Of a DNA stretch of 43,383 nt, positions 31,071-40,708 are shown in pieces. Below the pieces are notes generated by a model. That model was not told the origin of the DNA, did not search any database, and saw nothing but the letters and a program-made list of their open reading frames with translations. Made by a program: the position numbers and the translations under genes. The DNA is from Ruminococcus sp. (GTDB taxonomy: Bacteria > Bacillota > Clostridia > Oscillospirales > Ruminococcaceae), in assembly GCA_017471405.1 (NCBI GenBank), contig JAFUTK010000067.1:1-43383 (forward strand). The letters are read 5' to 3'. Numbering within the stretch: position 1 is the stretch's first letter; each line of letters begins with the position of its first letter.

Positions 31071-31146
31071 GGGAGCTTAGCTCAGCTGGGAGAGCGTCTG
31101 CCTTACAAGCAGAGGGTCATAGGTTCGAGCCCTATAGTTCCCACCA
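31071..31146 (+). tRNA. tRNA-Val (anticodon TAC)
   Basis: 76 bases with encoded CCA. The acceptor stem is GGGAGCT/AGTTCCC, the anticodon loop CTTACAA gives TAC, and the T loop is TTCGAGC. First of four clustered tRNAs sharing one promoter and one terminator. Confidence 0.95.
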
Positions 31147-31222
31147 AGTAGCGCTGGCGGCTAATGCCGCCTCCGCTAACTTTTTTCTGAAACGCGGCGA
31201 GATGCCGGTTTCGGATCTATGC

Positions 31223-31299
31223 GGCCGGGTAGTTCAGTTGGTTAGAACGCCAGCCTGTCACGCTGGAGGTCGTGGGTTCGAGCCCCATTCCGGTCGCCA
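31223..31299 (+). tRNA. tRNA-Asp (anticodon GTC)
   Basis: 77 bases with encoded CCA. The acceptor stem GGCCGGG/TCCGGTC includes two G-U pairs, the D stem is GTTC/GAAC, and the anticodon loop CTGTCAC gives GTC. The 76-base spacer after tRNA-Val holds GGCGGC-TAAT-GCCGCC (31156-31171). Confidence 0.94.
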
Positions 31300-31303
31300 A
31301 TAT

Positions 31304-31379
31304 GCTTCTGTAGCTCGGTCGGTCGAGCAGAGGACTGAAAATCCTCGTGTCGATGGTTCGATTCCGTCCGGAAGCACCA
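31304..31379 (+). tRNA. tRNA-Phe (anticodon GAA)
   Basis: 76 bases with encoded CCA. The acceptor stem is GCTTCTG/CGGAAGC with one G-U pair, the anticodon stem is GAGGA/TCCTC, and the loop CTGAAAA gives GAA. Four bases separate it from tRNA-Asp. Confidence 0.94.
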
Positions 31380-31385
31380 TTATAT

Positions 31386-31461
31386 GCGGATTTAGCTCAT
31401 CTGGTAGAGCGCCACCTTGCCAAGGTGGAGGTAGCGAGTTCGAGCCTCGTAATCCGCTCCA
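31386..31461 (+). tRNA. tRNA-Gly (anticodon GCC)
   Basis: 76 bases with encoded CCA. The acceptor stem is GCGGATT/AATCCGC, the anticodon stem is CCACC/GGTGG, and the loop TTGCCAA gives GCC. Confidence 0.95.
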
Positions 31462-36824: not shown

Positions 36825-37994
36825 TCAGGTAATATCCTTTGAACGTTTAACTGTGAATTTCAGCACATAGAGCATCACGCAGAACAGCACCGCCGATACC
36901 GGCAGCACGATAATAGCCTTCCCGTACCCGGCGTACTCCACAAGGCTGCCGAAAAAGGCGTTGAAGCCGATATCGAAGAAGGTGGCTATGCTCAGAATCA
37001 GTCCGGTGACCGAGCCCGCCTCAGAGGGGTCAAAATATTTTCCGATGAGCATTACCAGCATCGGGTAAAGTATGGAGAAGGCAATTCCGCTGGCTCCGAT
37101 TACCCACATTCCCTGTTTGCCGATGGCAATGCCGACAGTGTAGAGCGCCGCTCCGGCGGCTGACCATATCAGCAGGCTCTTGAATATCCCCAGCCTGTCT
37201 ATCAGCGGGGCAAATACCAGCCTGCCGACGGTTATCCCTCCGAAAAACAGCGAGAGGAAAAATGCGGAGCGGTCAACGGTAAAGCCCAGATGCTCACTGC
37301 CGTAGGAGGTCAGCCAGTTCATCAGTCCGTGCTCGGCTACGAAGTAGAACCCGCATATCAAAATGAGAAGTATGGCGGCGGGGTCCTTTATAACGGAGAG
37401 GACGCTGCTGCGCTTTTTCTCCGTTCTCTCGGGCTCCGGCAGCTTTAAGGCGAGCAGCAGAAGAATACACACTATCGCCAGCACAAGTAGTATCAGGTTG
37501 GCGGTATGCCAGCCCTTAAGGCTGTCGGCAAAGCGGCCTCCCACGTTCTGCGAGACGGTTATCCCGGCGCCCTGCAAAAAGTTGAATATGCTCACCATCA
37601 TTGCCGGCGAGGCGAAGAGCATCGGAGTGATGAGGTTCACTGTGGTTGAGATGAGGGTGGAGCCTCCCATGGATATCATCATCATTGCCAGCAGGATATA
37701 GTAATTCTCCGTCAGAACATAGGAGCAGAGCGCAGCTGACCATAGCAGCAGCACTCCGCAGAGAAAGCGCTTTTTCGGCAGCCTGTCCGAAAGCCTCCCT
37801 CCAATTGAGAGAAACAGCAGGTTGCCGATGTAGCTTATCATTATTATCCTTGATGCCTGAGGCTCTGTGAGGGAGAAGCTATCCCTCATCTGGGGGAGGA
37901 ACACTCCCCGCAAAGAATCCGAGGCAGCGGTTATGGCCATAACTATCCCGCAGAACAGCAGGGCGGTAAGCTTGGAATTATTCTGCTCCGTCAT
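36825..37994 (-). CDS. Major facilitator superfamily transporter
   Basis: A 389-residue secondary transporter with about twelve membrane segments. The first half has [54 protein letters not shown], which contains the family motif A ([12 protein letters not shown]) in the loop after segment 2. After the central loop ([15 protein letters not shown]) the second half includes [23 protein letters not shown], a repeat of the same motif. The pattern resembles sugar or fucose-permease-like MFS proteins, but the substrate cannot be assigned. Its ATG overlaps the ruvB stop by four bases (ATGA), so it is translated with the ruv operon; no functional link to recombination is apparent. Confidence 0.88.
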
Positions 37995-39031
37995 AGCATT
38001 GTCTGACCGTCCTTGAGTATGCCCAGATGCTTGTAGGCAAGCTGGGTGGCGCAGCGTCCCCTGGGAGTTCTTGCGATGAAGCCCAGCTGCATCAGATAGG
38101 GCTCGCAGACGTCCTCTAAAGTTACGGCCTCCTCGCCGATAGCGGAGGCGAGGGTCTCCAGTCCCACAGGACCGCCGCCGTAGCCCTTGATTATCATCTC
38201 CAGCATACGTCTGTCCAGTCTGTCAAGGCCCAGGTCGTCCACGTCCAGCTTGTCGAGGGCTATGTGGGCTATCTCTCTGGTGATGCGTCCGTCGCCCATT
38301 ATATCGGCAAAGTCGCGGACGCGCTTTAAAAATCTGTTGGCGATACGGGGAGTGCCTCTTGAACGGGAGGCCAGCTCCATAGCGCCGTCCTTATCGCAGG
38401 GGACGCCCAATATCACAGCCGAGCGCATAATTATCTCGCAGAGCTGCTGGGGAGAGTAGAGCTCTAATCTTTCGATGACGCCGAAGCGGTCCCGCAGCGG
38501 AGCGGAAAGCTGTCCCGAGCGGGTGGTAGCGCCTATGAGGGTGAACTTATTTAGCTCGATAGGTATGCTCCTTGCAGCGGGGCCCTTGCCCATAATAATG
38601 TCTATCTTATAGTCCTCCAAAGCGGGGTAGAGGATTTCCTCCACCTGTCTTGAAAGTCTGTGTATCTCGTCGATGAAGAGCACGTCGCCCTTTTCGAGGT
38701 TGGTAAGGATAGCGGCGAGGTCGCCGGGCTTTTCTATGGCGGGGCCAGAGGTGGTGCGGATATTCACGCCCATCTCGTGGGCGATGATAGTTGAAAGGGT
38801 GGTCTTGCCCAGTCCCGGAGGGCCGTACAGCAGGACGTGGTCGAGGCTGTCTCCGCGCTTCTTGGCGGCCTCGATATACACCTTCATATTTTCCTTGACC
38901 TTATCCTGCCCGATATACTCGTCCAGTGTTTTAGGCCGCAGGGATATCTCAAAGTCGTCGCCGTCGTCTGACTGTATGGGTGTTGGTGCGACGAAGCGGT
39001 TCTCAAAGTCAAAGTCACTTGATTCTATCAT
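37991..39031 (-). CDS. ruvB: Holliday junction branch migration ATPase RuvB
   Basis: Hexameric AAA+ motor that, with RuvA, drives branch migration of Holliday junctions. It has 346 residues (normal). Features are [30 protein letters not shown], Walker [10 protein letters not shown] (about 70), Walker [17 protein letters not shown] (about 120), sensor 1 LIGATTRSG, the sensor 2 region [18 protein letters not shown], and the winged-helix C-terminal domain ending [20 protein letters not shown]. Its stop overlaps the start of the MFS gene. Unusually, 54 bases upstream ends a transposase-like gene that separates it from ruvA. Confidence 0.97.
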
Positions 39032-39085
39032 TGCTTTTCTCCGTTACTCCTTTAGTATTACGAGCCATTCGTATTTCCTGTTTTC

Positions 39086-39601
39086 CTATATCTTCGGGCA
39101 GAGGCTGTCCCTCGTCCAGTCTTTGGCGTTAATCCTTATGTAGTCCCGAAGGCCCTTGGCTTCCTTATCGTCTCTGACTATCCTGTCAATGTATGTTCTC
39201 GCCCAGACTGTTACGCCCAAGTGCTTGGTCATTGCCTGCTTTAGCTGCTGGATAACTGTGGGGAGGGTGGTCTGGGCGGCTATTAGCCGCCCGGAAGCTG
39301 CCGTAACTCCGAAGCGTATCAGCATATGGACGTGGTTCGGGAGAATGGTGTACTCCTCCACCCTTATGCCGGCATAGTGGTGCTCTATCTCATCAATAAA
39401 GTGCTTTGCCGCCTCGCCGCACTCTGACAGTATCGGCTTTTCAAATTCCTCACCATTTTGGCGGCTAGTAGCCGCCAAAACGCTCCTCCAATCCCAGAGG
39501 ATGCAGGCACCCTTCCTCGTCACCATAGTCACGAAATAAAGCGCCGACGAACCATAGTCAAAGCCCCTGAGCCGTCTTGGCCTCTGCGTTTCGGGGTACA
39601 T
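39086..39601 (-). CDS. REP-associated tyrosine transposase (RAYT, TnpA_REP-like)
   Basis: Predicted Y1-type HUH endonuclease of the RAYT branch of IS200/IS605 transposases: single-copy, not flanked by its own ends, and in other bacteria linked to REP palindromes. It has 171 residues. Motifs are ALYFVTMVTRKG near the start, the HUH pair in LPNHVHMLI (His90, His92), QLKQAMTKHLG and VWARTYIDRIVRDDKE, and LRDYIRINAKDW at the end. Tyr137 and Tyr154 are the candidate nucleophiles. The ATG lies one base after the ruvA stop, with GAGG in the end of ruvA, so it is translated with the ruv operon. Two perfect palindromes lie inside the gene (39274-39292, 39456-39480). It probably acts on hairpin DNA, perhaps the dispersed repeats nearby. 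Confidence 0.85.
   Translation of the reverse strand: MYPETQRPRRLRGFDYGSSALYFVTMVTRKGACILWDWRSVLAATSRQNGEEFEKPILSECGEAAKHFIDEIEHHYAGIRVEEYTILPNHVHMLIRFGVTAASGRLIAAQTTLPTVIQQLKQAMTKHLGVTVWARTYIDRIVRDDKEAKGLRDYIRINAKDWTRDSLCPKI
39274..39292. repeat. Palindrome inside the RAYT gene (first)
   Basis: GGGCGGCTA, T, TAGCCGCCC: 9-bp arms with one central base. It encodes part of SGRLIAAQ in a variable region after the HUH motif. Confidence 0.85.
39456..39480. repeat. Palindrome inside the RAYT gene (second)
   Basis: TTTTGGCGGCTA, G, TAGCCGCCAAAA: a perfect 25-base palindrome with one central base. Its core GGCGGCTA-N-TAGCCGCC is identical to the palindrome 182 bases away. It encodes VLAATSRQN. Confidence 0.88.
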
Positions 39602-39602
39602 A

Positions 39603-40196
39603 TCAGAACCTCGCCAGCTGCTTCAAAGCACCCTTTATAAGCTCCTCTACGGAGAGGGACGGGTCAAGCTTGGAAACAGCCCCCGCAGCCTCCGCAGCGG
39701 AGTAGCCTAAAACCTCCAGCGCTGTAATGGCATCACTGACGCTGCCGCCGCTTATGGGAGCGGCAATAGCCTTCTGTCCCCGGACGGAGATGGTCTCTCC
39801 CGCTACCTTGTCCCTAAGCTCAAGACAGAGACGCTCGGCAGTCTTTTTGCCGATGCCCTTTACCTGTGTGAAGCTCTTGGAGTCGCCAGTGGCAATAGCC
39901 AAAGCAAACTGCTGCGGGCTCATAGCCGAAAGTATAGAGATAGCCGCCTTGGGTCCCACCCCGGAGACCGAGATGAGCAGCTTGAAGCTCCGTAGCTCCT
40001 CCTCGTCGGCAAAGCCGAAAAGGTCTACCCCGTCCTCGCGGACATTTAAGTAGGTCAAAAGCATTACCTCGTCCTTGCCCGCTATCTTTTGCAGGGTGGA
40101 AAGGCTGGTCCTGCATTCGTAGCCTACACCTGCGCACTCAACTACCGCCAGCTCAGCCTCTGTGTGTATCAGCTTTCCTCTTACTGAATATATCAT
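39603..40196 (-). CDS. ruvA: Holliday junction DNA helicase subunit RuvA
   Basis: Tetrameric junction-binding protein that loads RuvB. It has 197 residues (normal). Domain I is the OB fold MIYSVRGKLIHTEAELAVVECAGVGYECRTSLSTL. Domain II has the helix-hairpin-helix repeats, with LLISVSGVGPKAAISILSAM and FTQVKGIGKKTAERLCLELRDKV. The flexible linker and small domain III (SDAITALEVLGYSAAEAAGAVSKL) complete the protein. It lies 11 bases after ruvC and one base before the RAYT gene, so ruvC-ruvA-RAYT-ruvB-MFS is one transcription unit on the minus strand. Confidence 0.96.
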   Translation of the reverse strand: MIYSVRGKLIHTEAELAVVECAGVGYECRTSLSTLQKIAGKDEVMLLTYLNVREDGVDLFGFADEEELRSFKLLISVSGVGPKAAISILSAMSPQQFALAIATGDSKSFTQVKGIGKKTAERLCLELRDKVAGETISVRGQKAIAAPISGGSVSDAITALEVLGYSAAEAAGAVSKLDPSLSVEELIKGALKQLARF

Positions 40197-40207
40197 ATTA
40201 TCACCTG

Positions 40208-40708
40208 TTAGATTTGATTTGACTTTTCAAGCTCCCGCCTTCCCAGCGAGAGGCCGTGGGTTATAGCCAGCGCCACCGCGTCGGCAGTGTCGTCCGGCTT
40301 GATTATGGCTTTTAAGTGCAGCATATTCCGCACCATCTCCTGTATCTGATGCTTTTCCGCCCTGCCGTAGCCCACCAGCGCAGACTTCACCTGCAAGGGA
40401 GTGTATTCAAAGATCGGGATATCCTGCTGTATCGCCGGCAGCAGCGTCACACCTCTGGCCTGAGCTACGTCTATCGCTGTCTTTGCGTTGTCGTTGAAGA
40501 ACAGCTTTTCAATGCTCACCTCGTCCGGCGAGTATTTCTTTATTATGAGGGACATATCCTCGTTGATGACCTTCAGCCTCTTGTGAAAGGGCATATCGGC
40601 AGCAGTAGTCACCGCTCCGCAGTCGATGAGCGTGAATTTGCCGTGAGAGTGCTCAACTATCCCGTAGCCGACTATGGCATAGCCGGGGTCGATGCCCAGT
40701 ATCCTCAT
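40208..40708 (-). CDS. ruvC: Holliday junction resolvase RuvC
   Basis: Dimeric endonuclease that cuts Holliday junctions symmetrically. It has 166 residues (normal). The four acidic catalytic residues are visible: Asp in MRILGIDPGYAIVGYG (Asp7), Glu in SIEKLFFNDN (about 66), and the pair in KPDDTADAVALAITHG (about 139-142). Other family stretches are AQARGVTLLPAIQQDIPIFEYTPLQVKSALVGYGRAEKHQIQ. GGAGGG precedes the ATG. It is the first gene of the ruv operon, with its promoter at 40767-40739. Confidence 0.96.
   Translation of the reverse strand: MRILGIDPGYAIVGYGIVEHSHGKFTLIDCGAVTTAADMPFHKRLKVINEDMSLIIKKYSPDEVSIEKLFFNDNAKTAIDVAQARGVTLLPAIQQDIPIFEYTPLQVKSALVGYGRAEKHQIQEMVRNMLHLKAIIKPDDTADAVALAITHGLSLGRRELEKSNQI

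Follow-up and report, generated by a model that had tools for sequence, protein, structure and literature searches.

The window, a 43,383-nt stretch of DNA from Ruminococcus sp., contains between ruvA and ruvB a RAYT gene (Table 1) which we interpret as vertically kept and domesticated, the expected substrates of its product being REP hairpins that include two lying in frame within the gene itself. We put the probability of this reading at about 0.78. The RAYT would owe its place in the ruvA-ruvB junction to expression by read-through from the ruv operon and by translational coupling, not to cooperation with RuvAB. Its protein is predicted to fold, cut and rejoin REP hairpins on single-stranded DNA, the candidate substrates being a small family of mostly GTNT-footed hairpins with the core GGCGGCTANTAGCCGCC, which it may slowly copy or maintain. 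The in-frame pair, inverted and REPIN-like in most paired relatives, would be a protected self-copy of the enzyme's own REP, with the proposed consequence that protein and substrate evolve together.

Table 1. Features of the window discussed in the text, in order of position.
Feature	Position	Strand	Remarks
Four successive tRNA genes	31071-31458	+	
ruvB	37991..39031	-	NF000868
In-frame continuation beyond the TAG of the window RAYT	39044..39085	-	resembles the C-terminus of relatives by eye; ends at the TAA position of five relatives
RAYT (Y1 HUH transposase) ORF, 171 aa	39086..39601	-	stop included; frame open
Y154 codon, presumed catalytic tyrosine	39140..39142	-	
WARTYIDRIVR, foot-contacting stretch	39173..39205	-	aligned to WQPRFWEHAIR of E. 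coli TnpAREP; Q95 to A, H101 to R
Site 2, REP-like in-ORF palindrome	39271..39295	-	11/12 arm pairs, 1-nt centre; fold z -3.0 (as single DNA strand)
NHVH (HUH motif) codons	39326..39337	-	between both palindromes
Site 1, REP-like in-ORF palindrome	39456..39480	-	12-bp perfect arms, 1-nt centre; DNA fold z -7.1 (as single DNA strand)
ruvA	39603..40196	-	TIGR00084
GGCGAGG within ruvA, likely ribosome binding site of the RAYT	39609..39615	-	read from sequence; GAGG at 39609-39612
ruvC	40208..40708	-	NF000711

The RAYT identity proposed in an earlier sequence-only reading of the window was supported by profile searches. Pfam Y1_Tnp was matched at 26.6 bits (cut-off 23), and the nearest solved structure to a profile of 49 aligned RAYT sequences was 4er8, E. 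coli TnpArep (E 6e-9). The NCBIfam equivalog REP_Tyr_transpos (NF047646, REP-associated tyrosine transposase) gave a partial match of 41.4 bits, below its cut-off of 80. Residues N89, H90, H92 and Y154 were invariant across the 49 sequences, and with an HUH motif, a single Tyr and the Y1_Tnp profile the protein has the marks of a Y1 HUH transposase (TnpAY1). In its own assembly, which is 64% complete, it was the sole Y1_Tnp match, in agreement with the single copy claimed before, and it shows the RAYT combination of a single copy and a genomic REP family, the exact palindrome being confined to the RAYT-bearing genomes (6/16 of the genus). An IS200/IS605 insertion sequence, which would be bounded by transposon ends and present in multiple near-identical copies, is unlikely, as the incomplete assembly holds one copy and the palindromes lie within the ORF. 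Compared with its five full relatives the protein is short by about 14 residues: its TAG lies 42 nt ahead of the position of the TAA that these have in common, which in turn is 12 nt ahead of the ruvB ATG. Since the frame continues in a relative-like manner beyond this TAG, the early stop is read as either a nonsense mutation of recent date or a mistake in the assembly.

The order ruvC-ruvA-RAYT-ruvB-MFS, with the MFS gene after ruvB, was borne out by profile matches to the three ruv genes. The RAYT ATG (39601-39599) was confirmed to lie one base beyond the ruvA stop, with a likely ribosome binding site inside ruvA. Related genomes were then searched for this arrangement, in a genus set of 16 genomes that includes the window's own. 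This RAYT was found in six of them, the other five proteins being 68-77% identical to that of the window, and G002 has only a distant, different RAYT. Thirteen of the 16 have a true ruvB (82-100% identity), and six of these 13, representing six species, have the order ruvA-RAYT-ruvB. The other seven junctions comprise a scar in G003, four plain junctions, and unrelated ORFs in G008 and G011. The search gave no true ruvB for G005, G006 and G014, which puts their junctions outside this count. The inserted ORFs of G008 (L124) and G011 (L128) are one lipoprotein-like and one large membrane-protein-like ORF (labels by eye), and the ruvA-ruvB junction therefore seems open to extra genes. A peptide-pattern scan of a one-genome-per-species collection recovered five close orthologues (69-78%), every one beside ruvA and ruvB, after which identity of the next RAYT matches falls to 37% or less.

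By eye, each of the six ruv-clade genes has an in-frame start no more than about 9 nt from the ruvA stop, although two would require TTG. The pN/pS ratios, obtained at saturated synonymous divergence, were 0.30 for RAYT, 0.11 for RuvA and 0.10 for RuvB; by this measure RAYT is constrained, but less than RuvA and RuvB. The sequence-only reading had allowed for a chance insertion if the gene were confined to one strain and had lost HUH or Tyr residues. The order was found in six species with these residues retained. The operon position is thus real and conserved but limited to one clade.

In G003 the ruvA-ruvB gap measures 62 nt, and a piece of it aligns with RAYT tails. None of 500 shuffles aligned as well as this tail remnant to the RAYT of G001, and likewise for G004; against the other four RAYTs 60 to 263 of 500 shuffles were as good, with no clear alignment. 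The head remnant is weak (at best 23/500 shuffles as good, vs G004), and the gap reads as a probable RAYT deletion scar, a claim carried by the tail remnant. In a RuvA+RuvB tree of 10 genomes, which left out G010 and G002, the six RAYT-bearing genomes and G003 fell together on one side of a branch with support 100/100. Because 6/7 inner branches of this tree are open, the loss in G003 is based on the scar and not on the tree.

Two palindromes that flank the HUH codons had been overlooked in the sequence-only reading. Within site 2 positions 39274-39292 form a perfect core. With up to two mismatches the 15-nt core gave two matches in the window, vs 0.20 expected. Both sites recur in the five ruv-clade relatives; in G012 both arms of site 1 are altered together, a paired change, and in G013 site 1 is imperfect. 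Among alignment columns with an invariant amino acid, a single codon is used across the six species in 7/10 palindrome columns vs 6/73 elsewhere (p 4e-5), and the palindromes are conserved at the codon level. The window pair is equally matched in both orientations (inverted score 14, direct score 14), and the inverted score exceeds the direct one and reaches at least 13 in 4/6 ruv RAYT genes. In G012, which carries the RAYT, the inverted score is 7 because site 1 belongs to another REP type. This GGCGGATANTATCCGCC subfamily makes up site 1 of the G012 gene and three other G012 copies (four places in all, one of them G012:C178:19311-19327), and site 2 of the same gene stays near the main REP type, which looks like a replacement of site 1. 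A whole RAYT moving as a unit between the palindromes was ruled out, as these enclose only part of the ORF.

The search for such pairs was extended to the wider RAYT family, starting from the best 80 of 131 confirmed loci, of which 60 were taken further. Twenty loci were dropped by hand: L014-L017, which seem to duplicate L008-L011, and 16 others, for the most part partial or weak. Subsequent removal of L013 (apparently L007), addition of seven genes and removal of nine near-duplicates left 57 non-redundant RAYT ORFs, six of the ruv clade and 51 others; 49 of the 57 were aligned. The 57 ORFs contain 55 perfect-arm palindromes vs 4.7 after synonymous shuffling, with at least one in 34/57 genes. 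An inverted repeat score of at least 13 was reached in 36/57 ORFs (5 ruv, 31/51 others) and a direct score of this size in 12; when each gene was shuffled synonymously eight times, the best inverted score was likewise 13 or more in 13/57 genes. Inverted exceeded direct in 40 of the 57 and fell below it in nine. The HUH codons lie between the paired sites in all 36 genes (36/36), at a site spacing of 104-214 nt. The usual layout is GTAG-hairpin, HUH codons, hairpin-CTAC, with GTAG at both feet in 29/31 non-ruv genes that have an inverted pair; L012, whose foot reads GTAA by eye, and L020, with GTAT at one site by eye, are the two that differ. A RAYT-like ORF from Shapirobacteria holds a 28-nt perfect palindrome that starts with GTAG and ends with CTAC (L070:4178-4205).

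Copies of the core were also found elsewhere in the genomes. The exact REP core GGCGGCTANTAGCCGCC occurs in 6/6 RAYT-bearing and 0/10 other genomes of the genus, a split expected once in 8008 label shufflings by hand calculation. Outside the RAYT each RAYT-bearing genome has one to three exact copies, and the 11 genus copies outside RAYT that we examined are each a single exact core. When up to two mismatches were allowed, the real pattern gave 61 matches in RAYT-bearing genomes vs 25 for a reversed control, and 8 vs 28 in the others, so that this looser search carries background. Among the two-mismatch variants, which are non-independent where inherited in common, compensated pairs made up 18/26 in RAYT-bearing genomes vs 2/6 in the others. 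One compensated copy, GGCGGATACTATCCGCC, is in G006, where no RAYT was found. The different RAYT of G002 (L012:696-1319, between tsaD and polA) has its own palindrome pair, with a GTAA foot by eye; this palindrome has five copies in G002 and is absent from the 15 further genus genomes searched. RAYT-REP pairing is thereby exact within the 16 genus genomes searched, several of the compared genomes being incomplete.

Outside the genus a strict rule of one RAYT and one REP fails. Palindromes of the GGGACGATG type were found in 8/18 genomes. Five of these are all the genomes in which the RAYT fetched has sites of this type, with 3 to 23 copies each; the other three are G020 (12 copies), G021 (28) and G026 (12), whose fetched RAYTs bear other palindromes. 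Perhaps these three have further RAYTs, or REPs are shared between genomes.

A spacer between genes that, from their proteins, we take to be rpsK and rpsD could be parsed in 10/16 genus genomes. It holds an exact REP in G000, G001, G009 and G013, a one-change form in G004, and no REP in G012 despite the RAYT of that genome. The spacers of G005, G006 and G011 are shorter and without REP. In G003, which has only the RAYT scar, the REP looks broken by eye. The pattern is consistent with a loss of REP symmetry once the RAYT is gone, on the basis of one loss, read by eye.

The foot of the ruv-clade REP copies examined is mostly GTNT, by eye, and GTAG is absent from both sites of the five ruv RAYT genes tabulated. 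Residues W94, Q95, E100, H101 and R104 are treated by Quentin et al. as the foot-contacting stretch of E. coli TnpAREP; the role of W94 is unclear, and some RAYTs of other subclasses have R in place of H101 (PMC6006769). Q95, D100 and R104 are among the contact residues retained in group 3 (PMC8266576). A95 and R101 are common to the six ruv RAYTs. Among non-ruv paired RAYTs the motif pattern matched 29/31, with Q95 in 28 and, in the remaining match, L012 of G002, H95 and R101. A simple residue-foot rule meets counter-examples in L044, with R101 and GTAG, and in L020, with Q95 and one GTAT. Coevolution of the foot change from GTAG to GTNT with the changes in foot-contact residues is suggestive, since two lineages at most are involved.

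We place the RAYT near TnpAY1 subclass 2.4 (Bertels group 4). In Quentin 2018 (PMC6006769) REPs inserted in frame within the gene are described as unique to this subclass, lie generally between HuH and Y, and are treated as peripheral. The ruv clade resembles the subclass in its NHVH (NH[IFV]H in the subclass), its partial Tyr motif, its in-frame REPs within the gene, an insert between HUH and Tyr, and double-foot REPs. It differs in having WA or FA for WQ (W-A in the window), in a mostly GTNT foot where the subclass has GT[AG]G, in two sites that flank HUH and are inverted in most paired relatives, and in its ruvA-ruvB location. The window protein has YIRINA for YIxNNP, and the P of this motif is present in 2/5 relatives.

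The strongest competing explanation, which we regard as a serious one although we would not bet on it, is that the palindromes in the ORF are REPs inserted without selective effect, which surface loops of the protein tolerate. It is the reading suggested for subclass 2.4 by Quentin et al. 2018 (PMC6006769). In-frame REPs do occur in other genes, here in G009, where a REP core lies in frame near the start of an ORF that is presumably mnmA-like (L110:1501-1517). Neutral inserts ought to drift, however, and both sites have kept their palindromic form, perfectly or almost so, at saturated dS and under codon constraint; the paired change at site 1 of G012 and the matching of arms within genes across distant RAYTs also argue against neutrality.

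A more ambitious form of our own reading, which we hold only tentatively and rate as rather doubtful, makes the gene both message and substrate. The in-frame REPs would be a selected master copy (REPIN) that maintains the genomic REPs, with the changes in foot-reading residues matched in both in-gene hairpins. If this were true, a living RAYT could not lose its substrate. The palindromes might instead be operators on the RAYT mRNA or DNA, through which the protein would bind its own hairpins and limit its own synthesis. Two hairpins at fixed gene positions, with an in-gene palindrome identical to genomic REPs, would suit such control; we consider it unlikely, as mid-ORF hairpins are unusual as operators and the genomic copies outside RAYT form a family wider than an operator.

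Returning to the location of the domesticated RAYT, 81 RAYT loci were scanned over up to about 4 kb per side. Matches to ruvA and ruvC were confined to five same-genus loci, with none within about 4 kb in the 75 more distant loci (L018-L092), and the sole ruvB match among the latter, in L028, is a RarA-like protein. In 28/49 of the more distant loci the RAYT start coincides with the end of a same-strand ORF, vs 6.7 in control windows. The neighbours with NCBIfam names, taken from nine hand-picked proteins of seven loci (one without a match at E 1e-20), include folD/dprA, a RarA-like ATPase, tsaD/polA, fmt, an rRNA methyltransferase and a ParB/Noc-like protein. RAYTs of this group thus tend to sit behind another gene, the ruv operon being one of many such places.

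The sequence-only reading had inferred a functional link of the gene to the Holliday-junction enzymes. As a partner of RuvAB/RuvC its product would cut hairpins, or cruciforms, from within an operon devoted to recombination. The order kept in six species, the tight gene spacing and the adjacency of some relatives to dprA, RarA-like, polA and ParB/Noc-like genes (hand-picked) speak for this link. It is opposed by the lack of ruvA and ruvC in the distant loci, by the non-repair neighbours folD, fmt, tsaD and rRNA methyltransferase, by G003, which keeps ruvAB with a mere RAYT scar, and by the unrelated ORFs at the junctions of G008 and G011. We consider the partnership improbable, and the case warns that an operon address is a poor guide to repair function. 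A chance origin of the palindromes, forced by the conserved encoded peptides SGRLIAAQ and LAAISR, was ruled out by synonymous shuffling (4.7 vs 55 palindromes) and by the codon-level constraint, and site 1 of G012 kept a 13-bp perfect palindrome while its peptide changed.

The domesticated RAYT can also be compared with other known systems, as described in the accessible parts of the papers cited. It shares the HUH/Tyr core and the alignable foot-contacting stretch with E. coli TnpAREP (4er8, group 2), whose REPs flank the gene, are long and bulged and have a GTAG foot, whereas the window RAYT has two in the gene; no description of in-gene REPs for E. coli TnpAREP was found in the accessible part of PMC6006769. 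REPINs are two inverted REPs that can pair and depend on a RAYT (PMC8049555, PMC3116915); the inverted pair seen here in most paired relatives resembles them but lies inside the RAYT ORF, its sites 104-214 nt apart, and the 11 genus copies examined elsewhere are single. Intragenic REPs are known, some within repair genes, and like these and the Rickettsia palindromic elements the present palindromes are read through in frame; the Rickettsia elements occupy assorted genes (PMC3733652), whereas here the palindromes stand at two set positions in the gene that encodes the enzyme.

The literature searched gave no inverted pair around HUH, no foot/residue correlation and no precedent for a broken-looking REP at a RAYT deletion, nor the order ruvA-RAYT-ruvB, with none of the matches listed joining RAYT, ruvA and ruvB. 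Part of this may already be known. A likely substrate carried by the enzyme's own gene appears unusual. Written in the coding sequence, and with a foot change beside changes in foot-contact residues, it provides test material. For the question of why domesticated single-copy RAYTs persist with REPs the clade offers a compact natural test, its sister species spanning presence, truncation, deletion scar and a broken-looking REP.

A search of the window with Rfam gave nothing at the ruv operon, and the only matches at gathering score were four tRNAs, whose genes follow one another on the opposite strand.
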